From: Catellatospora sp. IY07-71
GTDB taxonomy: Bacteria > Actinomycetota > Actinomycetes > Mycobacteriales > Micromonosporaceae
Assembly (NCBI RefSeq): GCF_018326265.1
Contig: NZ_AP023360.1
Span: forward strand, 4,021,501 to 4,085,500
DNA length: 64,000 nt
Reading direction: 5' to 3'
The notes below the pieces were generated by a model that saw only the letters and a program-made list of their open reading frames with translations, was not told the DNA's origin and made no database searches. The position numbers and the translations under genes are program-made. Positions 29,329-45,255 of this stretch are shown here, in pieces. Numbering within the stretch: position 1 is the first letter of the stretch; each line of letters begins with the position of its first letter.

Positions 29329-29341
29329 TTCCCGTCCGCGG

Positions 29342-30142
29342 TCAGCTTTCGGTGACGAACCGGCACACCAGCACGGTGAGCGGCATGACCACCGCATACG
29401 CGCCGATGACCCCGGCCACCGAGCCGGTGCGCCGCCGGGCCCAGCCGAGCACGAGCGCCACGGCGAGCGCGGCCGAGGCCGTCGGCGTGCCGTACGAGAC
29501 GAACGTGATCGCGTAGATCACCGCCGCGACGACCACGTCCCAGCGGCCGACGACCCCGGCCAGGGCCGGGATGAGCAGGCCGCGGAACAGCACCTCGGCG
29601 GCGAGCCCGACCAGCGCGGCCAGGGCGACGGCCGGCAGGACCGGGAAGCCTTCGGTCACCGCGAGCAGGTCCGGCGCCAGCAGGTGGACGAGCAGCCCCA
29701 GCGGGACGCCGGCCAGCATGACGGCGGCGTGCTCAGCCCAGCCGGCGTCGCCGCGTAGCCGCAGCCAGTCCCGGGGGCAGGCGCGCACGGCCGCCGCGAC
29801 GGCGACGCAGATGGCCAGCGCGGCGACGGCCGCCCGCGCGGGCGACGCCGCGCCCGGCACGGCCTCCGTCACCACCCGGGTGACGGGGACGGCCACCAGC
29901 ACCGGCAGCAGCGCCGCGGCCTGCTCGCCGACGAGGGGGAGCCGGGCGCACAGGGCGAGCGCGAGGAACGCGAAGCCCGCCACCGCACCCGGCACGTACA
30001 CCGTGCGCAGCAGTTCGAGCGCCGCGAGCGCCACCAGGTATTCGGCCAGCAGCACCCGGCCGAGCACCGGGGACACCGCGGGCTCCGGCGGGGCCGGCGG
30101 GGCCGGCGGGGCCAGGACGGACGTCGCGCTACGAGAGGTCAC
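29342..30142 (-). CDS. CPBP-family membrane protein with degenerate protease motifs
   Basis: A 266-residue membrane protein with about eight helices after a Pro/Ala-rich N-terminus. The third-to-last block AAEVLFRGLLIPAL corresponds to the CPBP (Abi/Rce1) motif 1, normally EExxxR, but the first Glu is Ala. The expected second motif (F-x3-H) is FVSYGTP with no His. It may therefore be a non-catalytic relative. It is the last gene of the operon; its start overlaps the preceding gene by 14 nt. A role in glycan or signal handling is guesswork. Confidence 0.65.
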   Translation of the reverse strand: MTSRSATSVLAPPAPPAPPEPAVSPVLGRVLLAEYLVALAALELLRTVYVPGAVAGFAFLALALCARLPLVGEQAAALLPVLVAVPVTRVVTEAVPGAASPARAAVAALAICVAVAAAVRACPRDWLRLRGDAGWAEHAAVMLAGVPLGLLVHLLAPDLLAVTEGFPVLPAVALAALVGLAAEVLFRGLLIPALAGVVGRWDVVVAAVIYAITFVSYGTPTASAALAVALVLGWARRRTGSVAGVIGAYAVVMPLTVLVCRFVTES

Positions 30143-30371
30143 GGAATCGCTCCAGCACGGTGTACGCGAAGATGACGAACAGCGGCGCGATGACGACGTC
30201 GAGCAGGCGGAGCGTCTCCCGGCGAGGCGGTCGGCGCGCGCCCTGCAGCAGCACCTTCGTGACGAGTGCGGCCAGGAGGATCGCGAGCATGGCGAGCGCG
30301 GTCACCGTCGCCGCGGTGGTGCCCACGCCGGCCGCCGTGGCGAGGACCGGTCCCGGCCCGGCCGCGGTCAC
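30129..30371 (-). CDS. Small two-helix membrane protein
   Basis: An 80-residue protein I do not recognise: two hydrophobic segments (about residues 20-42 and 58-72) around a basic loop QGARRPPRRE. Start GTG overlaps the stop of the preceding gene as GTGA, and its end overlaps the next start by 14 nt, so it is almost certainly translated as part of the operon. An in-frame extension upstream is Ala/Gly/Arg low-complexity and was rejected. Confidence 0.6.
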   Translation of the reverse strand: MTAAGPGPVLATAAGVGTTAATVTALAMLAILLAALVTKVLLQGARRPPRRETLRLLDVVIAPLFVIFAYTVLERFRDLS

Positions 30372-30760
30372 GAGGCCCGCCCGGGGGCCGGCCGGACGCT
30401 TCGTAACAGCTCGGCGCAGGCCGCCAGCGACGCGACCGCCACGAGCGCCGCGAGCCCGCGCAGCGGCGACCACAGGCGCAGGTAGACCATCGCCTGGGAC
30501 ACCAGCAGGGCGAGGGCGAGGCTGAGCCCCACCCCGAGGAGCAGGCCCAGCGATCGGTCGGGCAGCCGGACGAGCCGTACGCAGGCCGCACCGGGCACCA
30601 CCGCGAGGTAGGCGAGCACGGGCGCCGCCCGCACCACTCCCGGCACGTCCAGCAGCACGAGCGTCAGCACGACCGGGCCCGCCAGCAGCACGAGCACCGG
30701 CGGCCACGCCTGGCGCGGCAGCCGCCCCCACGGGCGCGGGACGTCATCGATCCTTGTCAT
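30368..30760 (-). CDS. Four-helix membrane protein, DUF1616-like
   Basis: A 130-residue membrane protein: a short N-terminal tail then about four helices. The pattern LAYLAVVPGAACVRLVRLPDRSLGLLLGVGLS resembles the PG-x-A-x-x-R-L-x element of DUF1616-type proteins common in actinobacterial glycan clusters. Function unknown. Its start overlaps the end of the large membrane protein by 17 nt and its stop overlaps the next gene as GTGA. Confidence 0.62.
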   Translation of the reverse strand: MTRIDDVPRPWGRLPRQAWPPVLVLLAGPVVLTLVLLDVPGVVRAAPVLAYLAVVPGAACVRLVRLPDRSLGLLLGVGLSLALALLVSQAMVYLRLWSPLRGLAALVAVASLAACAELLRSVRPAPGRAS

Positions 30761-32594
30761 CTGTCTCCACCTTCGACGCGGGAAGCAGGACATATATGGA
30801 GGCATCGGGGTTGGCGTAGACGAGCCGGAAGCGGCTGGAGCGCCGCACCTGCAGCTCCAGCTGCTCACCCCAGCCCGCGGGCATGCCCAGGTAGGACTCG
30901 GCGAAGACGTACTGGCCGCGCGTCAGGAGGAGGTACGCCCCCTCCGCGTCGCGCCGCATCTCCTGCTCGATGGCGGGCAGGGTGCTCGGCCCCAGGTCGA
31001 GTCCGAGCGGCCGGTACGCGTACCGCTCGATGTGCCGGGACCGCCACGGCACGTTGGACGTCACCGCGACGAGCGTCGCGCCCGGCTGCGCGTGGGCGTA
31101 CAGCCAGTCCACGGCCTGCACGTCGTTCGGCCGGACCTGCTCGAAGCTCTCGTTGCCGTAGCGGGCGACGAAGAACGCGGCGGTGAAGGCGGCACTCACC
31201 GCGACGGCCGTGACGGCGGCGACGGCCCGGCTGCGGGCCTGTCCGGTGGGCACGAACAGCGCGGCCAGCAGCACCACCATGAAGGGGAGGCCGAACGCGT
31301 ACACCCGCAGGATGGCCTCGCCGCCGTAGCTCTGCAGCGCCAGCACGGCGAACGGCGCCCCGGCGAGCGCCAGCAGCGCGAGGTCGCCGTGGCCGGTGCG
31401 CAGCCGCCGCCACGCCCCGGCGGCGGCCAGCACCCAGACGGCCGCGGTGAAGCCGAGCCGCACCAGCACCACGGCCAGGTGCCCGTCGTCGCCCCGCACC
31501 CGCTGCACCGCCCCGGAGCTGATCGTGCCGGTGACGTTGCCGACGGACCCGAACATCGCCTCCAGATGCCCCGACCAGTAGGGCACCGTGAGGTAGCTGA
31601 TGTACGCGACGAGGATGACGCCCAGCAGCACCGGCAGCGAGCGCGCCCTGCAGCGGCCGGCCAGCGCCAGCGCCGCCACGGCCGCCACGATCGCCACCGG
31701 GGTGAGCTGGTGGCTGGCGGCGCTGGCGGTGAAGATCACGAGCACCCCCACCATCAACCCGGCGGTCGCGGCGCGCCCGAGCCGTGGTGACTCGGGTTCG
31801 TGCAGCAGCGGCTCGGCGGGCAGCCGCAGCGCGTGCAGCAGCCCGGCCCTGCGGGACGACGGGTCCGGGCCGCCGGACAGCCGGCGCGGGCGGAACCAGA
31901 CCACCAGCACCGTCAGCACGATCAGGTAGAACGCGTAGTTCAGCGCCTGCGGCCCGAAGTAGTCCTGCCCCACCCAGTTGGCCGGCAGGAACAGCCACAG
32001 CGCGAGCCACGCCGTGCGCGGCTCCGGGGACACGGCCCGGGCGAGCCGGAACACGATCGCGCCGTAGAGCAGGTTGAGCACGACCGGTGTCCAGCCCAGC
32101 AGCGGCATGGCGTCGGGCATCCCGGCCGCGCGGGTCGCCATCGCGGCCAGGGTGAAGAAGCCCGGCCAGTTGAACCTGGCGTCCAGGTACGGCAGCGTCT
32201 CGCCGGTCCGCGCGACGTAGTCGGCGAAGCCCACGTGCAGCCAGCCCGAGATGAACCGCGGCAGCGGCTCGATGATCGTCGCCGCGCCGAACAGCAGCAC
32301 CGCGAGCACGACGACGTGTGCGGCGAGCAGCACCCCCGGTGCGGGCCGGGCCCGCAGGACGCCACTGAGGAAGCTGATCGTGAGCAGGGCCAGCGCGCCG
32401 CAGAACTCCGGGCGCAGCGCGGAGACCAGGCCTAAGGAGCCGATGTCCGTCACATCGGACAGCCGCAGCGCATGCAGTCCGAGCAGGAGCGCCACCCCGG
32501 GCACCGCCCACCATGCCGTGTTGAGCGCGGCCGCGCCCCAGGCCGCGAGGCGCCGTGGCCGGACCGCCGCCCGGTGCGCTGTGCCGGCGCTCAC
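30744..32594 (-). CDS. Large polytopic membrane protein, polymerase or glycosyltransferase-C-like
   Basis: A 616-residue membrane protein with about 12 helices followed by a soluble extracytoplasmic domain of about 120 residues (FEQVRPNDVQAVDWLYAHAQPGA to ASIYVLLPAS). This outline fits GT-C/PMT-type mannosyltransferases or Wzy-like polymerases. An acidic loop (PYLDARFNWPGF) is present, but no textbook DD/DE catalytic pair is obvious. Start GTG, overlapping the flippase stop as GTGA. Likely job in the operon: polymerising or decorating the lipid-linked glycan outside the membrane (inference). Confidence 0.7.
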   Translation of the reverse strand: MSAGTAHRAAVRPRRLAAWGAAALNTAWWAVPGVALLLGLHALRLSDVTDIGSLGLVSALRPEFCGALALLTISFLSGVLRARPAPGVLLAAHVVVLAVLLFGAATIIEPLPRFISGWLHVGFADYVARTGETLPYLDARFNWPGFFTLAAMATRAAGMPDAMPLLGWTPVVLNLLYGAIVFRLARAVSPEPRTAWLALWLFLPANWVGQDYFGPQALNYAFYLIVLTVLVVWFRPRRLSGGPDPSSRRAGLLHALRLPAEPLLHEPESPRLGRAATAGLMVGVLVIFTASAASHQLTPVAIVAAVAALALAGRCRARSLPVLLGVILVAYISYLTVPYWSGHLEAMFGSVGNVTGTISSGAVQRVRGDDGHLAVVLVRLGFTAAVWVLAAAGAWRRLRTGHGDLALLALAGAPFAVLALQSYGGEAILRVYAFGLPFMVVLLAALFVPTGQARSRAVAAVTAVAVSAAFTAAFFVARYGNESFEQVRPNDVQAVDWLYAHAQPGATLVAVTSNVPWRSRHIERYAYRPLGLDLGPSTLPAIEQEMRRDAEGAYLLLTRGQYVFAESYLGMPAGWGEQLELQVRRSSRFRLVYANPDASIYVLLPASKVETDDKDR

Positions 32595-33934
32595 GACGCC
32601 GTCCGCAGCAGGCGCAGCAGCGACGGCAGGACCATGGCCGCGACGGCGAGCTGGCCGGTGAGGTAGGCGACGCCGACGCCCGTGGCTCCGAGTTCGCCCA
32701 TGGTGAGCCACGCCAGCGACACGACCAGGGCGCTCGACGACGCCTGGACGAGCACGATGCGGCCTACCCGGCGCTGCACCCGGCACGCGGCGACGTACAC
32801 GACCACGACCAGCTTCGGCAGCACCGCGATCGCGAACAGCCGCAGCACCGACGAGCCGGCCTCGGCGTACCGCGCGCCGAAGAAGGCCAGCAGCAGCGGC
32901 GCGCAGGCGTACAGCAGCACGGCGGCGGGGGTGAACAGCGCGAACCCGCGGCGCAGCAGCTGCCGGGCGTACCCGGCCAGCCGCGGCTCGTCGCCGGACC
33001 CGGCCACGGTGAGCGACGTGCCGAAGTGGAGCGCGACCAGCTCCAGCGAGGTGCCCAGCAGCCAGCCGACGTAGAAGACGCCGTTGGCCTCCGCGCCCAG
33101 CCGCGCGGTCACGATGACCGGCAGCGCGTTCGTACCCGCCTGCATGAACAGGTAACCGACGTAGTCCAGTGCGACGAATCGGGCCAGCATGCCGCGGCCG
33201 GGCAGCGAGCCCGGCTGCCGCAGCGCGCGCAGCCGCGGCAGCAGCCGCCGGAAGACCAGGATGTTGACCGGCACGAGCGCGACGACGACCGCCACGTTCC
33301 ACGACACGAAGATCCCCAGGCCCGGCAGGGAACCGGCCAGCAGCACCAGCAGCAGGATCTTGGCGACGCCGTACGCCGTGTTCTCCACCGGCACCCAGAT
33401 GGTCCCGCGCAGCGCGGTGAGCACGCTGTCCTGCAGGGTGAACACGCCCCACGCCGCGACGGCCAGGACGAACGCGGCGGCGAGCAGCGGCGTGCGGGCC
33501 AGGAACCCGAGCTCGTCCGAGACGAGCGGGGCGACGAGCAGGAAGCCGCCGCTGACGAGGAGCGCGGCGAGGTAGCTCAGGCCGTAGGCGTACCCGACCA
33601 GCCGGCCGCGATGCGGGCCCGCGGCGGGCAGGAAACGGGCCAGCGCGCCGTTGAGGTTCAGCTGGGACAGGTTGCTGAGGAACATCATCGTCGAGACCAT
33701 CGCCGTCCCGACGCCCACCTCGCGGGGCGAGTACAGCCGTGCCGCGAGCGCCCAGTAGGCGATGCCCAGCACCGAGCTGACCACGGTGTTGAGGGTAAGC
33801 GCGTACACGTTGCCGTTGAGCGGCTCGAGTAGATGTCGGCGCAGCCGCGAGACGAGCGGGACGCCCGGCGCGACGGTCCGCAGGGTGGGTACGCCGCCGG
33901 GCGCGCCCGCGGTCTCCGTGGGGCGCACGCTCAA
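32591..33934 (-). CDS. Polysaccharide flippase, Wzx/MATE-like
   Basis: A 447-residue membrane protein with about 12-14 helices. The N-terminus NVYALTLNTVVSSVLGIAYW and the block SREVGVGTAMVSTMMFLSN are typical of the polysaccharide biosynthesis (oligosaccharide flippase) family, which moves lipid-linked sugar units across the membrane. Start: TTG at 33934 overlapping the deacetylase stop (TTGA), with GGAGGG 5 nt upstream; a GTG 6 nt further on is possible. It lies between the deacetylase and the polymerase-like gene, as expected for an export unit. Confidence 0.85.
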   Translation of the reverse strand: MSVRPTETAGAPGGVPTLRTVAPGVPLVSRLRRHLLEPLNGNVYALTLNTVVSSVLGIAYWALAARLYSPREVGVGTAMVSTMMFLSNLSQLNLNGALARFLPAAGPHRGRLVGYAYGLSYLAALLVSGGFLLVAPLVSDELGFLARTPLLAAAFVLAVAAWGVFTLQDSVLTALRGTIWVPVENTAYGVAKILLLVLLAGSLPGLGIFVSWNVAVVVALVPVNILVFRRLLPRLRALRQPGSLPGRGMLARFVALDYVGYLFMQAGTNALPVIVTARLGAEANGVFYVGWLLGTSLELVALHFGTSLTVAGSGDEPRLAGYARQLLRRGFALFTPAAVLLYACAPLLLAFFGARYAEAGSSVLRLFAIAVLPKLVVVVYVAACRVQRRVGRIVLVQASSSALVVSLAWLTMGELGATGVGVAYLTGQLAVAAMVLPSLLRLLRTAS

Positions 33935-34758
33935 GGCACCCTCCGGGCGTCGGCCTGCGGGGCGGTGTGGGCCGTGCCCGCGAAGTGCCGGGCCTGCCGG
34001 TACACCCGCCAGACCCGCGTGCGCAGGCGCTCGCGGCGCCACGCGGGCGGCCACCCGCGCCCGTCGAGCAGCGTGTCGAGCCCCGCCGCGCCCAGGTCGC
34101 GCTCGATGAGCACCCGCGCGACGGCGTACAGGTCGTCCGCCTCGTGGCTCAGCGCGTTCTTGACCCCGCACGCCGAGCTGTAGCCCGCCGCGCGCACCTC
34201 CCGGCGCACGGCCGGGCTGTGGTAGCCGTACGGGTACGCGAACGACGACACCTGCTCCTGCAGCCCGTCCTCCAGCGCCAGCTTGCTGAGCGACACCTCC
34301 CGGCGCAGCTCGCCGCGCCGCAGGCAGTCCAGCGCCCGGTGGGTGTGGCTGTGCGACCCGATCTCCATCCCGTTCGCGTGCAGCTCCGCGAGCTGCTCCC
34401 AGCTGACGACGGGGCCGGAGCCCCGGGTCCGGGCGGCGCCCACTCGCGCGGTGACCACGTACGCCGTCGCCGGTATGGCGTAGCGGCGCAGCACCGGCAG
34501 GGCGGCGGTCGCCAGGTCGGCGTACCCGTCGTCGAAGGTGACCAGCACCGGCCGCGGCGGCAGCGGCAGGGCCGCGCGCAGCATTGTGGTGTACCCGGTC
34601 ACCGTCAGCGGCGTGCGCCCGCGCTCCCGCAGCAGCGCCATCTGCTCGTCGAAGTCGTTCGGCGACACCGACCAGCGCAGCTCGCCGTCGTGGGCGTCGT
34701 CGCTGACGCTGTGGTAGCAGAGGACGGGCACGGCCGTCCGGATCCGCCCGGCGCTCAT
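33931..34758 (-). CDS. Polysaccharide deacetylase (NodB family) of the glycan operon
   Basis: A 275-residue NodB-homology enzyme without a signal peptide. Motifs: VLCYHSVSDD, catalytic VTFDDGYADL (Asp-Asp), metal-binding EIGSHSHTHRALD (His-x3-His type), and FAYPYGYHSP. The C-terminal tail is basic. It may remove acetyl groups from intermediates before export, or be held at the membrane through its basic tail (inference). Its ATG overlaps the end of the tandem glycosyltransferase gene as ATGA. Confidence 0.85.
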   Translation of the reverse strand: MSAGRIRTAVPVLCYHSVSDDAHDGELRWSVSPNDFDEQMALLRERGRTPLTVTGYTTMLRAALPLPPRPVLVTFDDGYADLATAALPVLRRYAIPATAYVVTARVGAARTRGSGPVVSWEQLAELHANGMEIGSHSHTHRALDCLRRGELRREVSLSKLALEDGLQEQVSSFAYPYGYHSPAVRREVRAAGYSSACGVKNALSHEADDLYAVARVLIERDLGAAGLDTLLDGRGWPPAWRRERLRTRVWRVYRQARHFAGTAHTAPQADARRVP

Positions 34759-37115
34759 CGGCCCTCCCGCCTGGCCGACCACGCCGACGCGGCGTAGTAC
34801 ACCGGGCCCAGCGCCATCCCGGCGAGTTCGAGCAGGGTCAGCGACGCGGGATACCCGCCGCGCTTGTGGCCGTTCTTGCCCGATCGCGGCAGCAGCGCGT
34901 ACGCGATCCCGCGGGGCAGCCGCCGCAGCAGGTCGCGCCGCCCGGCGGTGTCCCGGGCCAGGCACTTGACCATGACGGCGCTCAGGCCGACGCCGTAGTG
35001 GAACAGCGAACGGCGCAGGTCGCGCAGCTCGCGCCGGTGCGCGTGCCAGACGAGCGCGGCGGGCTCGTACGCCAGCGTGTGCCCGCTCAGCACCGTGCGC
35101 AGGAGCACGTCGATGTCCTCGCCCGTGCGGACCGGGCCGCGTGAGCCGAGCCGCGGATCGAACCCGCCGAGCCCGCGCAGGACCTCGGTGCGGAAGGCCA
35201 TGTTCGCCCCGGAGCCGTACGAACCCGGCAGGTACGGGTAGAGCGAGCCGGGCGCGGCGGCCACCCGGGTTACCCCGGCCGGCTCGGCCGTCTCGAACCC
35301 GGCCCGGTCGAACCTCCGGCGGCGGCAGCCCTTGCCGAACCCGCCGTACTGCTCGATCCACACCTGGGCCGGGGTCTCCAGCTCGCTCGCGAGCACGTCC
35401 CCGGTCACCGCGGCGACCCGCGCGTCGGCGAAGCCGCCGGCCAGGGCACGCAGCCAGCCCGGGTCCACGGTCACGTCGTCGTCGACGTACGCGACGATCT
35501 CGCCCCGGGCCTCGGCCAGCCCCCGGTTGCGCGCGTGGGTGACGCCCGCGCGGGGCTCGGCGGCGTAGCGCACCCGGGCGTCGCGCGCGGCGTGCTCCCG
35601 GACGAGCCGCGCCGTCCCCGCCACGTGGGGGGCGTTGTCCACGATGACGATCTCGTAGTTCGGGTAGTCCAGGACGGAGAGCGAGCCGAGCGAGCGCGCC
35701 AGGTGCGGCGTGCGCCCGCAGGTGGGCATGACCACGCTGACGAACGGGTTTGGCCCGGACGGCGCCTGGCGGGCCGGGCAGGCCGCGCCGATCCCGCGGA
35801 GGGCGGCCAGGCCGGGTGTGAGCGCATCGAGCGGCGGCAGGCCGTCCGCCCGCAGGTGCTCGTCGATCGCGGCCCCGAGCCGCTGCCTGATCGCCTCCTC
35901 ATGCAGCCGCGCGGCCAGCCCGCCCGGCGGCAGCTCCAGGTCCAGCAGGCCCAGTGGCTCGCCGTGCAGCCGCACCAGCACCCGCGCGGCGGCGTACCTC
36001 CCGCCCCCCGGACCACGGCCGTCGGGCAGCTCCGGCACGCCGTCGCACAGCTCGACCGCCAGCATGCGCACCGGCTGCGCCGCGCCGAGACCGGGCGCCG
36101 CCGGCGCGGTGCTGCTCGGCTCCGGCGGCGCGGTGCCGGCCCGGCTGGCCCGAAGTGCCCGCCCCGTCGCGTAGCCCCAGGCGGTGACCAGCAGCCCGGC
36201 GACGATCGCGCCCGCCCGCAGCAACCCGCCGCGGTCTCCTGCGCGCGCCTGCCGCACGCCCTGGCGGACCCCGCGCGGCAGGGCCTGGCGGGTGTACGCC
36301 CGCTCCGCCGCGAGTCCCGCCCCGCTGCCGACCAGGCGGGCGACGACGGCCTTCGACCGGCCCTCGGCGAAGCAGCGGCGGCGGAAGTAGCTCCACGTGG
36401 CACGGTCCGCGGTGACCCGGTGGTGCACCAGCGCGCCGGGGTCGTAGAGGATCACGCTGTCGGGGTGCCGCTGCCGGATCCGGATGCACAGCTCGGTCTC
36501 CTCGCAACCGACCGGGACCCGGCCGACCCGGCCGAGCGCCGGGTCGAACCTGTCACCGTCGGCCAGGACGGCCCGCCGGAACGACATGTTGCAGCCGATG
36601 ACGTTGCGGACCGGCGCGACCTCGACCGGCTGGCCGGTGTAGCTGCACCCGATCACCCAGTCGAACTCGGGCGGCAGCCAGCGCGGCCGCGCCCCGTCCC
36701 ACGCCGGCTCGGCCCGGCCGCCCACCGCGACCACGGTGGGCTCCCGGTAGTGCCGCAGCATGCGGGCCAGCCAGTCCGGCTCCGCCGCGGCGTCGTCGTC
36801 GAGGAACGCGACGACGTCCCCGCGCGCGTACGCCACGCCGGTGTTGCGCGCTCCGGACAGCCCGGCCGGCCCGGCGCTCGGCACCACGGTCACCCCGGGG
36901 AAGGCCGCCCGCGCCCGTTCCAGCAGTGGCGCGTTGTGGTCCACGACCACCACGATCTGGTCGGCCGGGGTGTCCTGGACGAGCACCGAGTCGACGGCGC
37001 GCACGATCTGCGGCCACCGCTGCTCGGTGTAGACGCAGATGACGACGGTGGTGGTGGGCGCGGGCTCGTGCTCGGCCAGGACGCCGCCGCCGTACGCGAG
37101 CGCGGTGTCAGACAC
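34755..37115 (-). CDS. Tandem two-domain GT2 glycosyltransferase
   Basis: A 786-residue fusion of two GT-A glycosyltransferases. Domain 1 (about 21-260): TVVICVYTEQRW, AFLDDDAAAEPDW (DDD at 106-108), CEETELCIRIRQR. Then one probable membrane helix (about 298-318) and a Pro/Ala linker. Residues about 350-440 (RMLAVELCDG and LVRLHGEPLGLLDLELP) match the N-terminal region that many actinobacterial GT2s carry. Domain 2 (about 457-700): VSVVMPTCGRTPHL, YVDDDVTVDPGW (545-547), RTGEDIDVLLR. Both catalytic sites look intact, so two different sugar transfers in one chain are possible. Start GTG overlaps the upstream stop by 8 nt. Confidence 0.88.
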   Translation of the reverse strand: MSDTALAYGGGVLAEHEPAPTTTVVICVYTEQRWPQIVRAVDSVLVQDTPADQIVVVVDHNAPLLERARAAFPGVTVVPSAGPAGLSGARNTGVAYARGDVVAFLDDDAAAEPDWLARMLRHYREPTVVAVGGRAEPAWDGARPRWLPPEFDWVIGCSYTGQPVEVAPVRNVIGCNMSFRRAVLADGDRFDPALGRVGRVPVGCEETELCIRIRQRHPDSVILYDPGALVHHRVTADRATWSYFRRRCFAEGRSKAVVARLVGSGAGLAAERAYTRQALPRGVRQGVRQARAGDRGGLLRAGAIVAGLLVTAWGYATGRALRASRAGTAPPEPSSTAPAAPGLGAAQPVRMLAVELCDGVPELPDGRGPGGGRYAAARVLVRLHGEPLGLLDLELPPGGLAARLHEEAIRQRLGAAIDEHLRADGLPPLDALTPGLAALRGIGAACPARQAPSGPNPFVSVVMPTCGRTPHLARSLGSLSVLDYPNYEIVIVDNAPHVAGTARLVREHAARDARVRYAAEPRAGVTHARNRGLAEARGEIVAYVDDDVTVDPGWLRALAGGFADARVAAVTGDVLASELETPAQVWIEQYGGFGKGCRRRRFDRAGFETAEPAGVTRVAAAPGSLYPYLPGSYGSGANMAFRTEVLRGLGGFDPRLGSRGPVRTGEDIDVLLRTVLSGHTLAYEPAALVWHAHRRELRDLRRSLFHYGVGLSAVMVKCLARDTAGRRDLLRRLPRGIAYALLPRSGKNGHKRGGYPASLTLLELAGMALGPVYYAASAWSARREGR

Positions 37116-38148
37116 TGACGAGGACGCGTTCGACGTTGCCGCGAAGCCAGCGCGGGTTGTCATGGTGACCCTCCGAGTCGATGAACAGGCGGATGTGGCG
37201 TAGCCAGTAGAGGAGGACGGCGGGCCGTTGCGGGATGCCGTCCAGCCAGGTGCCGACCCGCTGGGCCGGGACGTCGAGCGCGTCGCTGATGCCGTGGCGC
37301 AGCGCGCGGAGCACCACGTCGCCGAGCTCGGCGCCGTGCGCCAGCCGGTGGGTGAGCACGTGCAGGTGCAGCAGGTCGTGCAGGGGCAGCTGCCGGGCCG
37401 CGGCATGGTCCCAGTCCACGACGCCGGTGACGTCGGCCCCGCTGCCCACGAGCAGGTTGCCGGGCCAGAAGTCGCCGTGGATCAGGGACGTGCGCACGGA
37501 ACGGCCGGACAGGGCTCCCACGATCTCCTCGTGCAGGCGCCGTACGCCGTGCCGGAGGCGGTCGCCGCGGGGCCGGGTGGCCGCGTAGGCGTCGAGCCGC
37601 CGCAGCGGCCGGTCCACCCACGCCTCGATGGTGGCGTCGTCGAGCCGCGTCACCTCGCTGGTCCGGGCGTGCAGGTCGCTGATGAGGCATACCGCCGACT
37701 CGAGCAGCGTCGCGAGCCGGGCGGAGCGCAGCGCGGCCGCGCCGCCCGGCATCCCCGGCAGCGCCTCCTCCACGCAGTAGTACCGGCCGTCGAACTCGCC
37801 CTGCTCGGCGCAGCGCGGGATGAGCGGCCGCAGGCGGTGCAGCCGGGGATCGCGGTGCAGGTCCGCGAGGACCCGGGCCTGGCGGCGCAGGCGCCGGGTG
37901 CCCTCGGCGGTCCAGGGGATCTTCACCACGAACCGCTGCGGCGAGCCCGGGCTGGCGACCATCACGACGGCGACCGAGGTCGCCGTGAACGCGACCGCCT
38001 CGGTGTGCCAGGCCCGGCCGCGGCCGGCCACGCTGCCGCCGACGAGCTGTGCGGCGACGGCCCCGGCCCACGTCCGCTCGGCCCGGTGCAGCCAGCGGGT
38101 GCGCTGCTCGTGCAGCCGCATGCGCGCGGCGCGCCACGACACGGTCAT
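37108..38148 (-). CDS. APH-type small-molecule kinase
   Basis: A 346-residue aminoglycoside-phosphotransferase-fold kinase. ATP lysine in VVKIPW (Lys76), catalytic loop IHGDFWPGNLLV (Asp226, Asn231), metal aspartate in GVVDWDHA (Asp245). Such kinases in glycan clusters phosphorylate sugars or other small molecules. Together with the neighbouring nucleotidyltransferase/thymidylate-kinase-like protein, it could form a route to an activated (NDP-linked) building block (inference). Start ATG overlaps the upstream stop as ATGA. Confidence 0.85.
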   Translation of the reverse strand: MTVSWRAARMRLHEQRTRWLHRAERTWAGAVAAQLVGGSVAGRGRAWHTEAVAFTATSVAVVMVASPGSPQRFVVKIPWTAEGTRRLRRQARVLADLHRDPRLHRLRPLIPRCAEQGEFDGRYYCVEEALPGMPGGAAALRSARLATLLESAVCLISDLHARTSEVTRLDDATIEAWVDRPLRRLDAYAATRPRGDRLRHGVRRLHEEIVGALSGRSVRTSLIHGDFWPGNLLVGSGADVTGVVDWDHAAARQLPLHDLLHLHVLTHRLAHGAELGDVVLRALRHGISDALDVPAQRVGTWLDGIPQRPAVLLYWLRHIRLFIDSEGHHDNPRWLRGNVERVLVSV

Positions 38149-39437
38149 CGGCCGGCCCTCTCCACGTAGTGCCGCCAGATGCGCGACAGCGCGTCGGCGA
38201 GCACGACGTCCGGCGGCCGGTCGGCGTCCACGTGCTCCAGGTCGGGGATGCGCTGCCGCAGCAGCCGGTAGTGCGCCCGCTCCGTCTCCAGGTGCGCCGG
38301 GTCGTACTCGCCGGACCGGACGTGCATCACCCGGCCCGGCACGTCGAGCAGCAGGACCAGGTGCGGGCGCGGGCAGGACCGGCTGATCAGCTGGAAGTAC
38401 GGCCGCTTGAGCCAGCGCAGCGACCCGCGCGGCGGCAGCAGCGCGTCGTACACGTACCGGTCGAAGACCGCCGTGCGCCCGAGCATCCGGTGGCCCAGCC
38501 CGGTGAGGTAGCGGCCCCACGCGACCAGCGGCCGCAGCATGATGCGCAGGGCCTGCGCGACCGAACCGGCGGGCGTGTCGTCGGCCTTCCACAGGCCCAT
38601 GTAGACGCGGCGCACCGGGAAGAAGAACGCCGACTCGATCCCCTTCGCCAGCGTCGACTTGCCCGCCCCGTCGGGTCCGAGCAGCGCGACACTGGCCCCG
38701 CGCCGGCTCCACGCCTGCAACGGCCGCTCCACGAGCCGTAGCGCGGCGCCCGCGGCCGACCTGCGGACGGTGGTGAGCGGCCGGGTCCGGCGCCACGCCC
38801 GGCGCAGCGCGCCGCCCTGCGCCTCCAGCGCCGCCCACTTCCTGGCCCGCGCCTGCCGCAGCAGCAGCGCGGCGCCGACCGCCGCCGGCACCGCTGCCGC
38901 CAGCGGGCTGTGCAGCGACGTCCGTTCGCGCAGCCGGTCCAGGCGGTGCAGGTGGCGGCCGGCGAAGGCGCGCTTGTCGAGCAGGCAGTGCAGCAGCAGC
39001 GCCCAGAACTCGTCCTCGGGCCGCAGCAGCCAGACGCCGTCGCGCCGCACCCGCCGGGCCAGGCACCCGTCCTCCGCGCCCGTCGGCAGCTCGGCGTGCC
39101 GCCCGTAGGCCAGCTCGGTGACCAGGTCGAACTGCACCCAGCTGCTCGTGGCCGGGTCGAGGCCCAGGAAGAAGACGTGCGTGCCCCGCCCGTACGCCGG
39201 GAGGCGGAGCAGCCCGCACGCCCTCAGCACGGCCAGGGCGCGCGGCAGGTCCGCGGCCGCGACGAGGACGTCCAGGTCGTCGCCGTCGCCCGCGCCGCCG
39301 CGCAGGACGCACCAGCGCACCGCCGCCGCGTCGAGATCGGCCAGCACCCTGCGGGCCAGGCTCTCGGGTCCGCGCAGCGCGGGGTGCCGGCTGGGGGCCG
39401 ACAGGGCCGCGGGCATGGGCATGTGGTCGCTCCTCAT
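38145..39437 (-). CDS. Nucleotidyltransferase-like and thymidylate-kinase-like fusion
   Basis: A 430-residue two-part protein. The N-terminal half (about 25-210) has RWCVLRGGAGDGDDLDVLV with Asp54/Asp56 in a D-x-D arrangement, as in nucleotidyltransferase-superfamily proteins. The C-terminal half (about 245-430) is a P-loop kinase with GPDGAGKST (254-262) and FDRYVYD, like thymidylate kinase. Neither activity is certain. Proteins of this layout occur in exopolysaccharide loci. Start ATG overlaps the glycosidase stop (ATGA); an in-frame ATG 15 nt on is possible. Confidence 0.78.
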   Translation of the reverse strand: MRSDHMPMPAALSAPSRHPALRGPESLARRVLADLDAAAVRWCVLRGGAGDGDDLDVLVAAADLPRALAVLRACGLLRLPAYGRGTHVFFLGLDPATSSWVQFDLVTELAYGRHAELPTGAEDGCLARRVRRDGVWLLRPEDEFWALLLHCLLDKRAFAGRHLHRLDRLRERTSLHSPLAAAVPAAVGAALLLRQARARKWAALEAQGGALRRAWRRTRPLTTVRRSAAGAALRLVERPLQAWSRRGASVALLGPDGAGKSTLAKGIESAFFFPVRRVYMGLWKADDTPAGSVAQALRIMLRPLVAWGRYLTGLGHRMLGRTAVFDRYVYDALLPPRGSLRWLKRPYFQLISRSCPRPHLVLLLDVPGRVMHVRSGEYDPAHLETERAHYRLLRQRIPDLEHVDADRPPDVVLADALSRIWRHYVERAGR

Positions 39438-41059
39438 GTCGTCGAAGCCGGGACCGCCGACCGCGTGGGCGCGGGCTTCGGGCTGCGGCACTGGTCGGGC
39501 AGGGTGGTGGGGGAGCCGCTCGGCGCGGCGGGGGCCCCGGCCGGCAGCGGCACGTGCCGGACCTCGTACGGCCCGAGGTGCACGCGCTGCCCGCGTACGT
39601 CGACGGCGCCGCGTTCGCCGCCGGTGTTCACCAGCAGCAGGTCCGTACGGCCGTGCAGGACGCCCACGTCCGGCAGCGGCCAGCTGACCGGGCCGTCCCC
39701 GGCGGTGTCGCCGAGGATCCGCCGCAGCAGCGCCAGCGCCTGCGCGTACGCGAGCGGGCGGCCCCCGCCGGCGCGGTCGGTCGCGGTCCACAGGGCCGGG
39801 GGGAGCGGGCCGGGCGTGCTCGGGGCGCGCTGCGGCTGCCACACCAGCGCCACCGACGCGCCCGCGCCGGCCATGTGCAGCAACGCCGCCAGGGCCCTGG
39901 AGACGAGCTGCGGCTCCGCAGCCGCCTCCGCCCGGCCCACGTGGAACTCGCTCCACCACACCGGCAGCGACGTGCGCTGGCGCACCCAGTGGGTGACGGC
40001 GCCGAACAGCGCGCTGGCGCGGGCGGCGCGCGCGGCCGGGGCCAGCCCCTGGTCGCGGGTGCCCAGGCCGGCGTCGAGCGCGACGAAGTCCGCCCCGCGC
40101 TTGTGCCGCAGCCAGTAGTCGAGGACGTCGAGGCCGCGCTGGTCGACGACCCCCCAGTCGCCGGTCAGGCAGGACGCGTGACCGCCGGCCCGGCCGTCGG
40201 ACCAGGTGTCCAGGACGACGTACGGCCCGCCCACGGCGATCGCCGGGTCGACCGCCTTCAACGCGTCGTACACGGCGTTGTAGAGGTCGGTGTAGGCGGC
40301 GGCGTCCCACCGGTTGTTCTTCTCGTCCCAGAAACCCTTGAGCTCGTTCCACACCTGGTAGTGGGCGACGTCGGGATACCGGCGGGCGACCGCCGCGGCG
40401 AGCTCGGCGAAGTCGCGGTAGTGCCGCCGGTCGGGGGCCGTTTCGAGCCGTTTCCAGTCCGTCTGGCCCGCCTGCCCGCCCTTCATCCAGTCCGGCGCGC
40501 AGCACAGGGTGATGACCGGGGTGCCGCCGGTGGACCGGATGAGCGCCATCCGCTGGTCGAGCGACGACCAGTCGTACACACCCGGCCTGGGCTGCGGATT
40601 GAGCGCACCCCAGCCCATGATGTGCTGGTTCTGGTAGGTCGCCGCCGCCGTGAGGACCGCCTTCGCCGACGCGCGGGCCTCGGCGTCGCTCCAGCCGTCG
40701 ATCGAGTACTGGGCGTGCGTGACACCCACCGACAGCGTGCCGGGGTCGGGCCGGTGCGGCGGGGGAGTGGCCCGGTCGTGGGCGCCGCCACCGGCGGCGG
40801 TCCATTCGGCGGGGCGTGGCCAGGACCAGTTCGGCCAGGCGAACAGGAGCAGGCCGGGCAGCATGAGCAGCACCGCGGTGGCCGCCACGGTCCGGGCACC
40901 GCGCCGCCCGGACGGGCCGGTTCGGGCGGCGCGGTGCCGGCCGGGCCGGATCGCGGCGTGCTCACGGGGCCGGACCTGCCCGGGATCTCCCGGCCGGTCC
41001 GTGGCGTGCCTGGGGCGGTACGCGGCGTGCCTGCCCGCGACTCGGTGTGGTCGGCCCAC
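39434..41059 (-). CDS. Membrane-anchored GH39-like glycosidase
   Basis: A 541-residue protein: an Arg/His-rich N-terminus of about 55 residues, one membrane helix (about 57-77), then an extracytoplasmic clan-A TIM barrel. Likely acid/base Glu239 in QVWNELKGFWDEKN and nucleophile Glu371 in WWSEFHVG, as in GH39 xylosidases and related enzymes. The GTG start has GGAGG 5 nt upstream, which decides it; the long basic tail is therefore probably real. Within a biosynthetic operon it may trim or transfer the exported glycan rather than digest food (inference). Confidence 0.78.
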   Translation of the reverse strand: MGRPHRVAGRHAAYRPRHATDRPGDPGQVRPREHAAIRPGRHRAARTGPSGRRGARTVAATAVLLMLPGLLLFAWPNWSWPRPAEWTAAGGGAHDRATPPPHRPDPGTLSVGVTHAQYSIDGWSDAEARASAKAVLTAAATYQNQHIMGWGALNPQPRPGVYDWSSLDQRMALIRSTGGTPVITLCCAPDWMKGGQAGQTDWKRLETAPDRRHYRDFAELAAAVARRYPDVAHYQVWNELKGFWDEKNNRWDAAAYTDLYNAVYDALKAVDPAIAVGGPYVVLDTWSDGRAGGHASCLTGDWGVVDQRGLDVLDYWLRHKRGADFVALDAGLGTRDQGLAPAARAARASALFGAVTHWVRQRTSLPVWWSEFHVGRAEAAAEPQLVSRALAALLHMAGAGASVALVWQPQRAPSTPGPLPPALWTATDRAGGGRPLAYAQALALLRRILGDTAGDGPVSWPLPDVGVLHGRTDLLLVNTGGERGAVDVRGQRVHLGPYEVRHVPLPAGAPAAPSGSPTTLPDQCRSPKPAPTRSAVPASTT

Positions 41060-41061
41060 CC

Positions 41062-42171
41062 CTACCTCCGCCCGCGCAGCTGCTGGAGGGCGACACCGGC
41101 ACGGCGGCGCGCGCGCTCGGTGAGCGAGGCGACCGGGAGCCGCTCGAGCCAGTAGCTCGCGTAGTGCTGCTCCACCGCGCCGAAGCGGCTCTTGAAGAGC
41201 GCCAGCGGCGATCCGGGCCGCGAGTCCCCCATGTGGTACGACGCGCAGCCGGCCTCGGCCGCGTCCTGGATGGCGGTGCGGTGCAGCAGGTAGTTGGCGT
41301 AGGTCCGGCCGGCCAGGTCCTCGTTCATGGCCCCGCGCCAGTACATGGCCGTGGTGGCCGTGAACAGCACGACGATCGCGGCGGCCGGTTGGCCGTCGAC
41401 GAACCCGGCGTACACCCGGCATCGCGCGCCGAGCCGCTCCGCGACCGTCCGCAGCTTGCTCGCGGGCTCCCGCAGCGAGGCCCGCCACTGGGCCAGCGCC
41501 ACGGGCTGGCCCTCGTGGCGGGCCCACCGCTCGACCGACATGGCATAGAGCCGCTGGAAGACCGGCACGAGCCGGCCGGTGTCGTCGCGTTCGACGACGA
41601 CCCCGGCCCGCTCGGCCCGGTTGACCCGGTTGCGGGTGTCGCGGCGGAAGCGGGTGCGCCACACCTCGTCGAAGCCGCCCGCGAGGGAGAGGCTCTGCGC
41701 CATCGCGGGCCGGCGCACCGTCCAGGGCGGCCTGCCCTCCTCCCACGTCGCCGCGGCGGCGGGCTCCGGGCGGAGCCAGACCCGCAGCGCGCGGTGCGCG
41801 GCGAGGTCCCCGAAGACCATGCGGACGTCTTCAGGGAGCACCACTCCCGATTCGCCGACCAGGCCCGCCGGTCCCCAGCCGAAGGGCATCGAGGCCTCGC
41901 TCAGGATCATCCGGCCGAGCACGGCGCGCCGCGCGAGCGGGAGCACCAGGCGCCTGCCGTCGGCGGTCTCGTAGAGGCGGGTCGCGTCCTCGAACCCGCC
42001 GACGGCGCAGACGCACCGCAGCCACTCTGGTGTCTGGCTCGCCAGCACCTGCGGGGCGGAGGCGAGCACCTCCTGCCAGACCCCGGCGGGCACCGGGCTG
42101 GTCACCGTGTAGGCGCGGCCCTGGCCGCCGAACCGCCCACGGCGCGAGTGCGGCACGGTCGGGGCGGTCAC
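41062..42171 (-). CDS. FemAB/GNAT-like aminoacyl or acyl transferase
   Basis: A 369-residue protein with two GNAT-like halves. The C-terminal half has the acetyltransferase-6 pattern: RFRRDTRNRVNRAERAGV, VYAGFVDGQPAAAIVVLF, MNEDLAGRTYANYLLH and the terminal SPLALFKSRFGAV. FemAB relatives move amino acids from tRNA to peptidoglycan; those in capsule clusters acylate sugars. It is cytoplasmic, with no signal. Start GTG overlaps the upstream stop as GTGA; 2 bp separate its stop from the glycosidase start. Confidence 0.8.
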   Translation of the reverse strand: MTAPTVPHSRRGRFGGQGRAYTVTSPVPAGVWQEVLASAPQVLASQTPEWLRCVCAVGGFEDATRLYETADGRRLVLPLARRAVLGRMILSEASMPFGWGPAGLVGESGVVLPEDVRMVFGDLAAHRALRVWLRPEPAAAATWEEGRPPWTVRRPAMAQSLSLAGGFDEVWRTRFRRDTRNRVNRAERAGVVVERDDTGRLVPVFQRLYAMSVERWARHEGQPVALAQWRASLREPASKLRTVAERLGARCRVYAGFVDGQPAAAIVVLFTATTAMYWRGAMNEDLAGRTYANYLLHRTAIQDAAEAGCASYHMGDSRPGSPLALFKSRFGAVEQHYASYWLERLPVASLTERARRRAGVALQQLRGRR

Positions 42172-43481
42172 GGTGCCACCAGCGGGACGTCGGCGTGCCA
42201 GTAGCGCTGCGTCGCGTCGTTGGAGGCCAGCACGATCAGGCCGGTCGTGCTGTCGACGGTCTGCTTGGTCGAGGTCACGTTGTTGAGATGGAGTGACAGC
42301 GCGTCGCGCATGACCGGCGTGCCCCGCCCGGTCGGGAACGAGATGTCGTCCAGCGGGGAGCTCTTCATGAAGATCGTCCCGTCGGCGCCGGAGAACGGGC
42401 AGCCGCTGTCCGGGGCGGTGGCGAACACGTACACCATCCGGTGCTCCGAGTCGATCATGACGATCGGCCGGGTGTGGCAGTCCCTGACCCGGCCCACCGC
42501 GTGGGCCGACCAGTCGCCGGTGGATGGATCCCGGGCCAGCAGCATGATCTGTGGCGCGGACTGGGACCCGCCTTCGTCGTGGCTGGTCTTCACCACCGCG
42601 ATGACCTGCCCGGACGGGTCGGCCTGGAGCGTCTTGATGCTGACGTGGTCGTCGGCGGACTTCGGCCCCTGGATCGCCGTGCGGCCGACATCCCAGGTGG
42701 ACGGCGCCGCGCCGTCGTCGTGCACCGCGAAGAAGATCGCCGACGCGGGCTGGTTGCTCCACATCACGCCGGTCCGGCCGCCGCCGAACGAGACGATCGC
42801 CGAGATGTCGTCGGCGTCCAGCCCGGTGGCACCGGTGACAGGGAGCACGAACGGCGTGCCCCAGGTCGTGTCGGCGCCGGCCGTGGCGTTCACATAGACC
42901 TTCGCGCCCTGCGTCCAGGTCGCCCACAGCACCCCGGTGGAGTCCTTGTCGATGGTCAGCGTCTCGGTCGAGTGGTTGTTGATCTGCACCGGGAACCCGG
43001 TGTCCCTGGTGTACGCCTGCGTGGCGGGCTCGTAGCTGTAGCGGTAGAGCCGGGCCGGGTTCCCGGAGGCGGCCGCGGTCGACGACGAGGCCCGCACGTG
43101 CGAGGCCACGTAGAGGCGGCTGCCGTCCCACAGCACGTCGGAGCGGGTCTTGGGCCGGTTGTCGACGACCGTGCCGGTGTCGACCCAGCTCTGCGCCGAC
43201 CGGTCCAGCCAGAAGATGCGGTGCGTCTGGCTGCTCGAGTGGAACAGCACCGCCCACCAGCGCCCGTCGTGCCACCACAGCTTGCTCTCCGGCTTCTCGC
43301 CGGTCGCCGCCGAACCGTCACCCGAGGTGGACGGCCCGACGTAGCCGATGTCGCCGGGGGCGGCGCTCGCCGCCGGGGTCAGCCGGTCCGGCGCCGGGAT
43401 GAGGCTGAGCAGCACGCCGAGCAGCACGGCCAGAGCGACCCGGCCGCCGGCTGCGGGCGATCTCCGCTGGTACGCGATCAC
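42168..43481 (-). CDS. Secreted beta-propeller-like protein
   Basis: A 437-residue exported protein. Signal peptide: RVALAVLLGVLLSLIPAP ending near AASAAPGD. The mature part has repeated strand patterns with WWHDGRWWAVLFHSS, VLWDGSRLYVASH, LWATWTQGAKVYVN and SIKTLQADPSGQVIAV, which look like blades of a BNR/sialidase-type propeller without clear Asp-boxes. The end (LNNVTSTKQTVDSTTG, then YWHADVPL) I recall from other actinobacterial surface proteins. Its role may be glycan binding. Start GTG with GGAG upstream, overlapping the GT2 stop (GTGA). Confidence 0.7.
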   Translation of the reverse strand: MIAYQRRSPAAGGRVALAVLLGVLLSLIPAPDRLTPAASAAPGDIGYVGPSTSGDGSAATGEKPESKLWWHDGRWWAVLFHSSSQTHRIFWLDRSAQSWVDTGTVVDNRPKTRSDVLWDGSRLYVASHVRASSSTAAASGNPARLYRYSYEPATQAYTRDTGFPVQINNHSTETLTIDKDSTGVLWATWTQGAKVYVNATAGADTTWGTPFVLPVTGATGLDADDISAIVSFGGGRTGVMWSNQPASAIFFAVHDDGAAPSTWDVGRTAIQGPKSADDHVSIKTLQADPSGQVIAVVKTSHDEGGSQSAPQIMLLARDPSTGDWSAHAVGRVRDCHTRPIVMIDSEHRMVYVFATAPDSGCPFSGADGTIFMKSSPLDDISFPTGRGTPVMRDALSLHLNNVTSTKQTVDSTTGLIVLASNDATQRYWHADVPLVAP

Positions 43482-44449
43482 AGGAGGCTCCTCTCCTCCA
43501 GCGGGTGGCCCGACGCCTGCGCGAGGCACACGTCGCCGGCCACCGTCCGCCACTCCTGCAGCACGCGCTGGTCGATCGGGTCCACGACGGGCCGCGGCTT
43601 GCGGATGATGCGCTCACGCAGCAGCGTGCGGAGCACCCGCTGCCCGTCGCGGAACGTGCGCAGGTTGGAGGTGCCGCGCCGCCGCTGCAGCTCGGTGCTG
43701 GGCACCTCGGCGATGCGCAGGTCGGCCTTCAGCGCGCGCACGATGAGTTCCGTCTCGATCTCGAAGCCGTGCGCGGTGAGGGCCAGCGCCGGCACGCAGT
43801 CCCGGCGGAACGAGCAGAAGCCGTAGCACAGGTCGGTGAAGCGGACGAGGAACATCATGTTCGTCATCCAGACGAGCACCGAGTTGCCCAGCCGCCGCAG
43901 GAGGGTGAGGTCCTCCGATCCGCCGCCGGCCAGGTACCGCGAGCCCTTCACGAGGTCGTAGCCGTTCATCAGCGGGGTCACGAAGCGGTAGATCTCGGAG
44001 GGCTCCATGCTGCCGTCGGCGTCGATCATCACGATGAGGTCGGACGTCGCGGCGGCGAGGGCGACGCGTACGGCGTCGCCCTTGCCGCGGAAGCGCTGAT
44101 TGACCACGACGACGTCCGGGCGGACGGCTCGGGCGACCTTGACGGTGTCGTCGGAGGAATGCCCGTCGACGATGATCACCTCGTCGACGATCGAGGGGAT
44201 GCGCTCGAGCACCCAGGGGATGTTCTCCGCCTCGTTGAGGGTCGGGATGATCAGGCTGACGGTCTGTCGCCGGGGCTGGCCGCCGGCCGCGGCGTCGTCC
44301 CGGCCGGCCCGCCGCTCGCGCGAGCGCATGATGGGCGGCGCGGTCAGGCTTTCGCGCCAGGTGAGCAGTGCGCCGTCGCCGGCCGGTGGATACGGCGGGC
44401 TGACCACGGTGCTCGCGTGGCCGTCGACGTCTTCAGGGCGGGTGAGCAT
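43478..44449 (-). CDS. GT2 glycosyltransferase, polyprenol-phosphate type; first gene of the operon
   Basis: A 323-residue GT-A enzyme similar to dolichyl/undecaprenyl-phosphate mannosyltransferases and glucosyltransferases. VSLIIPTLNEAENI (about 64-77), IIVDGHSSDDT, catalytic MIDADGSMEP (Asp143/Asp145), and GFEIETELIVRALKADLRIAEVP are standard. There is no membrane tail. The start at 44449 was chosen because GGAG lies 6 nt upstream; an ATG 12 nt earlier has none. It probably charges the lipid carrier used by the operon's membrane enzymes. The promoter should lie in the AT-richer stretch just upstream. Confidence 0.85.
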   Translation of the reverse strand: MLTRPEDVDGHASTVVSPPYPPAGDGALLTWRESLTAPPIMRSRERRAGRDDAAAGGQPRRQTVSLIIPTLNEAENIPWVLERIPSIVDEVIIVDGHSSDDTVKVARAVRPDVVVVNQRFRGKGDAVRVALAAATSDLIVMIDADGSMEPSEIYRFVTPLMNGYDLVKGSRYLAGGGSEDLTLLRRLGNSVLVWMTNMMFLVRFTDLCYGFCSFRRDCVPALALTAHGFEIETELIVRALKADLRIAEVPSTELQRRRGTSNLRTFRDGQRVLRTLLRERIIRKPRPVVDPIDQRVLQEWRTVAGDVCLAQASGHPLEERSLL

Positions 44450-44461
44450 TGAGTTCTCCAT

Positions 44462-45255
44462 AGATCGAACGCGGAGTCGGACGCCGTGCCGGCGTCGTGG
44501 CTGATGGCGGGGCTGAATGGTGTGCCTTTCCGGCGGGTGCTCCGGGCGGCGCGCGGTAATCGCGTGGTCGGGGCCGCCCCCGTCTCCGGGGCAGGTTGTC
44601 GTTGCATCTACTACCTTTTCTGGACAAAACGGACACAGTGCAGCAGCGTGTGCCCGTCGCGCGGTTCGTGGATCGGTGGTGAGTTCGCCGGCTGACCGGC
44701 TCACCGGGGTGACATCCCCTGGTACAAGATTCGCCGAGAATTCGTTACTTCATGGGATATTTCTGACAGTTTGCGAAGTTTCGCCCCATTTTTGTTGCCC
44801 CCACACGCGAGCGGTCGGGCGAGGCCGAGGCGACGGCCGAGCCTCAGTCATCTGCGCAAAGTGGACATGATGCGGCTGTCTCTCGTGAGTAGGCAGGTCC
44901 GCACCAGACCTGAGTGGGTCGCCCTCGCGGGCAGGGAGGGCGGTGGGTTCCCGGGGCGGCTCGCGGGCCGCACGGGGTCACCGTCCGTTGTGCACCGGCC
45001 GCCGGGACGCCGTGCCCGGGACCGTCTCCGGATGTCGTCCTGCTGCGGGGCGCTGCCGCGGGTCCTCCGCCGCCGACGCCGCGCACGGCGTCACCGGGCG
45101 GTGATCGGCAATCAAGGCCCCCGCGGTCAAACCAGACCCCCGTCGCTTGCGCTGCGGATCTCGCATCCGCTGGTCGTATGCCTTGGGTAACCGGTGCCGG
45201 CGGCGAATGGCTACGCGCCGTGATCGCTGATCCGAGCCGGACGGCGGACGTCCGG
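44462..45255. other. Promoter-bearing intergenic stretch, about 800 bp
   Basis: I see no believable gene. The part 44700-44800 is markedly AT-rich for this genome (TTCGTTACTTCATGGG, CATTTTTGTTGCC) and probably holds the glycan operon promoter. On the minus strand CTGTCA and TAACGA are 16 bp apart there, a weak -35/-10 candidate. A short direct repeat (GGACAAAACGGACAC) lies at about 44622-44636. The remainder is GC-rich without features. Confidence 0.45.

Follow-up and report, generated by a model that had tools for sequence, protein, structure and literature searches.

A predicted glycan assembly cassette in Catellatospora

The stretch of Catellatospora sp. IY07-71 DNA analysed here (contig NZ_AP023360.1, positions 4,021,501 to 4,085,500; 64,000 nt, hereafter the window) comes from a single-contig genome of 8.6 Mb and holds thirteen genes, A to M, which we read, with a probability of roughly 0.6, as a horizontally spread glycan assembly cassette with a polyprenyl-monophosphate start (A) and a GT-C end (J). 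The order of steps that we propose follows from the protein families. A would load the first sugar onto polyprenyl monophosphate at the inner side of the membrane, the two glycosyltransferase family 2 (GT2) domains of G would lengthen the product of A, H would take off acetyl groups, and C, E and F may activate or add non-sugar groups. I would then flip the lipid-linked oligosaccharide, and K together with J, as a putative GT-C enzyme outside the membrane, would pass it to an acceptor or polymerise it. Finally, the secreted B and the anchored D may act as trimming enzymes on the product, the part that PslG plays for Psl. To our knowledge, little has been learnt about the surface glycans of filamentous actinomycetes, and a narrow literature look, judged by titles and listings, found no publication on the A-M cassette.

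All thirteen genes lie on the minus strand, from the ATG of A at 44449 to the stop of M at 29342, exactly where a sequence-only reading of the window had placed the run. Genes were called from codon statistics, start choice and family searches (Pfam, NCBIfam); between ~29360 and 44300, the codon statistics favoured successive minus-strand frames, with dips at the gene ends. Eleven of the 12 junctions overlap, three of them by 8, 17 and 14 bases and eight by exactly 4 bases (GTGA, ATGA or TTGA), a count that is biased upward because the start rule took the codon nearest a 4-base overlap; the remaining junction is a 2-base gap. Starts of the overlap type are available in relatives too, which is better evidence than the counts in the window alone: 4-base overlaps were found at 8/12 junctions in a sister species and at 8/11, 8/10, 9/10 and 7/10 in four Micromonospora. 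Under the same start rule, the start of G overlaps F by 56 bases in these four, and two of them show ~40-base gaps before I. The overlap pattern is thus kept in five relatives. A simple consensus scan of 29000-45800 gave neither sigma-70-type promoters nor intrinsic terminators (0 each vs 0.3 and 1.5 in shuffles), which is weak evidence, and Rfam gave no match at gathering score in the window. Upstream of A lies a region of ~0.8 kb (44450..45255, minus strand) in which the coding scan found no coding signal; it belongs to the insert described below, mostly aligns in the sister species and not in other genus members, and is a possible promoter or leader region. No clear conserved regulatory motif was seen by eye upstream of A. 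Taken together, the arrangement of the reading frames supports A to M as one coupled glycan operon.

A probable monophosphate-type start and a predicted GT-C end

A (43478..44449, on the minus strand like all genes of the run) is a GT2 enzyme of the polyprenyl-monophosphate type, similar to AglJ, DPMS and ArnC (PF00535, 2.3e-22). When its family profile was compared with the PDB, dolichol monophosphate mannose synthase came first (5mlz, 2.3e-30), followed by undecaprenyl-phosphate Ara4FN transferase, and the carrier-loading first step is its probable role. G (34755..37115) carries two GT2 domains in tandem, an AglG-like one and then an MftF-like one (PF00535 in two stretches, 3.2e-53). H (33931..34758) is a polysaccharide deacetylase (PF01522, 7.5e-26) whose resemblance to PgaB/IcaB lies below the NCBIfam cut-offs. 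I (32591..33934) is a flippase-like membrane protein of the Wzx/MATE type; its profile resembles MurJ weakly (0.043), and among its relatives PF01943 matches 3 of 17 aligned proteins (best 4.5e-07). The labels that A, G, H, C, D and F had received in the sequence-only reading (GT2, tandem GT2, deacetylase, FemAB-like transferase, GH39-like enzyme and APH kinase) agree with Pfam matches above cut-off, and the flippase label is backed by the relatives of I but not by I itself. That reading had also seen neither an initiating phosphoglycosyltransferase nor tyrosine-kinase chain-length control, and had concluded that the run is not a standard Wzy locus; in agreement with this, the Pfam matches of the 13 proteins (five of which had no match) included no initiating phosphoglycosyltransferase and no tyrosine kinase or chain-length regulator.

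J (30744..32594) is a predicted GT-C fold glycosyltransferase, acting as a putative transferase or polymerase outside the membrane. Its AlphaFold2 model (pLDDT 81.6, pTM 0.85) matched 14 PDB chains at E<=1e-3, and 14/14 belong to structures of either GT-C enzymes or oligosaccharyltransferase (OST) complexes (DPY19, AftA, STT3-containing OST, ArnT and PglB), the matched OST chains being taken to be STT3. By the fold of this model, J is predicted to belong to the GT-C glycosyltransferase superfamily. We therefore rejected J as a Wzy polymerase, since its structural neighbours are GT-C enzymes and OST and no Wzy family matched, and the earlier label of a polymerase-like protein is at best incomplete. 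Profiles of J and B gave weak matches only against PDB sequences (E 0.079 and above). GT-C enzymes typically carry a catalytic acidic residue on their first large outer loop. Position 125 of J is D or E in 18/18 aligned proteins and, as read from the helix list of the model, probably falls in this loop; W143-P144, Y212, H295-Q296, P299 and YGGE (423-426) are identical in all 18. As a predicted GT-C membrane enzyme that the searched family libraries do not name, J may represent a new class of lipid-linked sugar transferase, a proposal that lends itself to testing.

K (30368..30760) is a four-helix membrane protein that, by its profile, resembles what forms the N-terminal part of the J proteins of relatives. 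In 10 distant relatives, the K profile matched just before J and in one open frame with it in six loci (L075, L076, L077, L078, L079 and L080); in L124, the match lies directly behind J and has a frame of its own. An independent tblastn search also matched K in L077 (2.4e-05), and this match and the constant place of K before J speak for a real relationship. K therefore looks like a detached N-terminal part of J. Given the K-like segment before J and the joint divergence of J and K in Micromonospora sicca (see below), the two most likely act as one unit.

The cassette occurs in differing neighbourhoods

Homologous clusters were found in a sister Catellatospora and at seven Micromonospora loci. 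A contig scan with two peptide patterns of E gave 46 stretches, of which 9 were confirmed as a lower bound, and returned C. bangladeshensis (NZ_BONF01000032.1), seven Micromonospora species (M. yasonensis, M. veneta, M. sicca, M. pattaloongensis, M. globispora and spp. CB01531 and MP36) and one Chloroflexi metagenome-assembled genome (MAG). The Micromonospora loci hold 8-12 cassette genes in the order A-B-C-(D)-E-F-G-H-I-J-K-L, as in the host; contig ends cut two of them (M. yasonensis after I, M. globispora before D). D was found in three of the seven, as two matching pieces in M. sicca, and not in the other four. Protein identity between host and Micromonospora was 58-74% for A to J, barring exceptions in M. 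sicca, and 40-63% for K and L. In M. sicca (L084), J fell to 29.6% and K to 43%, with 49-72% for the matches of A to I and 49% for one piece of D. An upstream flank was available for six of the seven loci, and in blastn comparisons only CB01531 and MP36 shared kilobases of it, which gives at least five neighbourhoods, all of them differing from that of the host.

Relatives of J were present in 23 of 150 genomes of the family Micromonosporaceae including the host, and reached at least 62% identity in four (the host, G051, G149 and G008); in G149 and G008, pdxS and pdxT adjoin each other on another contig. At eight distant family loci chosen by J, A and G stand beside J in 8/8 and I in 7/8, and a locus from another family of the same class (L119) has A, B, E, G and J in one cluster. 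The other loci chosen by B mostly hold B alone or with one or two partners. Counting the host, B was found in 11/296 class genomes and E in 15/292 at E<=1e-3, nine of the latter being short weak matches; E had no match in 72,556 plasmid records. On the contig binned as a Chloroflexi MAG (L090), homologues of E, F and B lie together (40%, 31% and 49% identity), and the B homologue is extended at its C-terminus by a repeat-rich part. The best reading of these loci is that the cassette spread horizontally.

The insert lies between pdxS and lrp

In the window, the A-M run occupies a short spacer between the convergent genes pdxS (longest frame 28232..29263, plus strand; PF01680, 2.6e-106) and lrp, which encodes an Lrp/AsnC regulator (45256..45726, minus strand; PF13404 and PF01037). 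Judged against insert-free sites, the insert extends approximately from the pdxS stop to the lrp stop (29264..45255). lrp and a gene for a methionine-gamma-lyase-like Cys/Met pyridoxal phosphate (PLP) enzyme (45786..47105, plus strand; PF01053, 4.5e-96; best NCBIfam model TIGR01328, below cut-off) separate the run from pdxT (47122..47751, plus strand; PF01174, 9.9e-58). The operon had been described as inserted between pdxS and pdxT. It is indeed flanked by both, but the insertion itself lies between pdxS and lrp, and the interval also holds the Lrp and Cys/Met PLP genes.

We compared 11 Catellatospora genomes, the host and 10 others, and could align the DNA of pdxS and of lrp, the lyase gene and pdxT in 10/10 of the others. 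The spacer holds the A-M run in two sister species, no insert in seven and a different glycan operon in two. In the seven insert-free genomes, the blocks flanking pdxS and lrp are 82-167 bases apart, as measured between alignment edges, and the window and G051 carry ~16 kb in the spacer with 94% identity between the two. A tree of lrp, the lyase gene and pdxS joined the window and G051 with a support of 1.0, and we infer that the insertion happened once, in the ancestor of these two sister Catellatospora species. The sharp cassette boundaries, together with related species lacking the insert, offer a clean with/without comparison. G+C content is 0.71-0.78 in the run vs 0.67-0.77 around it, so that composition is no mark of foreign origin. 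The Lrp and methionine-gamma-lyase-like genes were rejected as cassette members because they are present also in insert-free genus members, and both are native to the locus.

The different operon, in G109 and G129 (L070 and L071), consists of ~6 kb of other genes in the same spacer. As annotated in G129, these encode a GT2, a PMT-like membrane protein (PF02366, 19.2 bits vs a cut-off of 22.7) and a radical copper oxidase similar to GlxA (score 382.5, below the cut-off of 800). A search of all 11 genomes placed the PMT-like protein at this spacer in G129 and G109, gave a 37% relative in G133 and had no match in the other eight. As far as the Streptomyces CslA-GlxA glucan locus is described, its likeness is to this alternative insert, through the GlxA-like oxidase and the GT2, and not to the A-M cassette. 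We considered the second insert as a sign of one ancestral, later replaced glycan locus. G109 and G129 were not joined in the tree, and gain and loss therefore cannot be told apart. Within a single genus, the pdxS-lrp spacer holds two glycan operons that are unrelated to each other, which suggests a landing place for surface-glycan genes.

Seen by eye, four of the insert-free spacers (L064, L065, L066 and L068) contain long imperfect inverted repeats, with arms like ATCGCCGTTTCGTGTC, and two (L067 and L069) contain a different repeat. Such inverted repeats in convergent spacers are possibly two-way terminators.

Weighing the cassette against other explanations

Several observations weigh against a horizontally spread cassette with a monophosphate start and a GT-C end. 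The best NCBIfam model for A, AglJ (7.2e-45), scored 153.6 bits vs a cut-off of 325, and G was likewise below cut-off for AglG (1.2e-78; 264.5 bits, cut-off 440) and MftF (6.7e-62). I itself has no Pfam match. For J, the TM-scores are moderate (0.39-0.49), there is no sequence-level GT-C family match in Pfam or NCBIfam, 18 J proteins are without a fitting Pfam family, and the one PF02516 (STT3) match in the host genome is weak (17.7 bits, below cut-off) and lies elsewhere than J. The K profile had no match among those listed for L074, L081 and L119, and 6/6 fused K-J frames showed further K matches inside J, so that part of the score reflects common membrane composition. At the insert junctions no direct repeats were seen by eye, no integrase or transposase is among the Pfam matches of the run, and no close donor of the cassette was found. 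Finally, a genome-wide search for PF02397 found three phosphoglycosyltransferases of this family elsewhere in the host genome, which leaves room for a diphosphate-linked start.

This last point bears on the strongest of the alternatives, which we still consider unlikely: a Wzx/Wzy-type exopolysaccharide operon that borrows its initiating phosphoglycosyltransferase from elsewhere, with J polymerising repeat units on a diphosphate carrier. The three PF02397 matches and the flippase-like I fit such an operon, and a deacetylase and glycosidases occur in exopolysaccharide loci as well, as described for PslG (PMC6813494). However, what J matches in the PDB at E<=1e-3 is either a GT-C enzyme or an OST complex, the structures nearest to A are monophosphate GT2 enzymes, and, unlike a Wzx/Wzy-dependent polysaccharide locus, the run has no initiating phosphoglycosyltransferase, Wzy or chain-length kinase among its Pfam matches.

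Less probable again, and overlapping with the cassette reading preferred here, is glycosylation of a protein or other acceptor by a counterpart of haloarchaeal AglJ-AglG-AglB in which J-K would be a new OST. In Haloferax, one report describes AglJ and AglG as adding sugars in turn to one common dolichol phosphate (PMC3871713). Like the haloarchaeal Agl N-glycosylation system (AglJ, AglG, flippase, AglB), the cassette has GT2 enzymes of the AglJ/AglG kind, a flippase-like protein and a predicted GT-C-fold enzyme. AglJ and AglG are the nearest NCBIfam models to A and to the first half of G, OST complexes and PglB are among the fold neighbours of J, and A, G, the flippase-like protein and J co-occur. 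In contrast to the haloarchaeal system, the cassette is bacterial, scores below the cut-offs, has no STT3-family match in the run and includes an extra deacetylase, kinases and glycosidases. DPY19, AftA and ArnT are equally near to J, the STT3 family does not match J in the host genome, 0/18 J proteins match a fitting Pfam family, and no acceptor was identified; moreover, homology of this sort is, according to one source, a limited guide to substrate (PMC4335974). A wider proposal would be that Actinobacteria own a pathway for oligosaccharides on monophosphate lipids that parallels the one of haloarchaea. J-K would then represent a new OST family (GT-C fold, no detectable sequence kinship with STT3, PMT or Wzy), one that is carried about in interchangeable cassettes and exchanges the cell surface glycan in a single step; we regard this proposal as equally doubtful.

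The least probable alternative, which also overlaps with the preferred reading, is that A makes a polyprenyl-phosphate sugar and an ArnT/AftA-like J adds sugars one at a time to a wall glycan that is already there, with G and the remaining proteins building a different part: the closest structures to A (dolichol monophosphate mannose synthase and Ara4FN transferase) and the matches of J, which include ArnT and AftA besides OST, agree with it, but the flippase-like protein and the tandem GT2 would point to an oligosaccharide.

Other proteins of the cassette

B (42168..43481) is a predicted secreted beta-propeller, as had been proposed from its sequence, both in its AlphaFold2 model (pLDDT 86.4) and in the fold neighbours of that model. 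It has no Pfam match at 0.1 and no NCBIfam match at 0.01. The nearest folds are L-rhamnose-glucuronate lyase, the glycoside hydrolase (GH) BT3686, lectins, ulvan lyase and sialidase (query TM-scores ~0.4-0.55), and the columns identical in 22/22 sequences include R, E, D, H and K. B is probably a glycan lyase/hydrolase or a lectin. D (39434..41059) is a membrane-anchored GH39-like glycosidase (PF01229 above cut-off) with a hydrophobic segment near residue 54. Its profile matched beta-xylosidases (3.6e-13) and PslG (4e-05), and the glutamates of WNE and WSE are present in 4/4 aligned sequences. PslG, from the Pseudomonas Psl locus, is reported to be located mainly in the inner membrane, its hydrolytic activity being needed for Psl synthesis (PMC6813494); the comparison of this exopolysaccharide locus with the cassette covers this one protein. 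In three J-type clusters (L074, L075 and L078), a small secreted glycosidase-like protein was seen by eye near J, where the cassette has B and D.

Three proteins resemble enzymes of group transfer or activation. C (41062..42171) is a FemAB/GNAT-like acyl or aminoacyl transferase (PF13480, 5.6e-15, and PF02388, 7.6e-08, above cut-off), and F (37108..38148) is a small-molecule kinase of the APH fold (PF01636, 1.5e-14, above cut-off). E (38145..39437) fuses a nucleotidyltransferase-like domain to a thymidylate-kinase-like P-loop kinase; D54-x-D56 and PDGxGKxT do not vary among 13 sequences. For this fusion, as first described, the kinase part is supported by the profile match of E to thymidylate kinase (1.4e-9), but the nucleotidyltransferase part stayed below cut-off (PF14907, 2.4e-4).

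The run ends with two further membrane proteins. L (30129..30371), with 80 residues and two helices by hydropathy, was found by tblastn in all six Micromonospora loci that reach past J. M (29342..30142) is CPBP/Rce1-like (PF02517, 2.5e-09, above cut-off) and was found only in the two Catellatospora copies, with no tblastn match in the same six loci; its catalytic positions look altered relative to what we take to be the family motifs.

The split of pdxS and pdxT is not rare in the family

The separation of pdxS from pdxT, singled out in the sequence-only reading, is real but not exceptional. Among the 150 family genomes, pdxS was found in 148 and pdxT in 149, of which 148 were above the family cut-off. 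With an uncut pdxS, 147 genomes entered the comparison, 141 of them with both genes on one contig; outside the 141 are six genomes in which the two genes lie on separate contigs or pdxT is absent from the matches listed, one (G140) with pdxS cut by the record end, and two without a pdxS match. The two genes are at most 1 kb apart in 104 of the 141 pairs and farther apart in 37. Of these wide pairs, 11 are from Catellatospora, 15 from a single further genus (g12) and 11 from elsewhere, which makes 26/130 outside Catellatospora. Gaps above 7 kb occur in eight pairs, four of them in Catellatospora. With 37/141 pairs more than 1 kb apart, the split alone is not remarkable, and we rejected it as an exceptional feature.

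Three further observations concern this interval. The Lrp/AsnC and methionine-gamma-lyase-like genes stand beside pdxT in 11/11 Catellatospora genomes, which places a PLP enzyme between the PLP synthase genes. In two genomes of another genus (G004 and G083; loci L130 and L131), peptide-transporter-like and other genes lie between pdxS and pdxT, with gaps of 12.1 and 17.4 kb, as judged by eye from the predicted proteins. In genus g29, pdxT adjoins pdxS on the opposite strand in 7/14 genomes (G029, G076, G126, G136, G139, G142 and G145).

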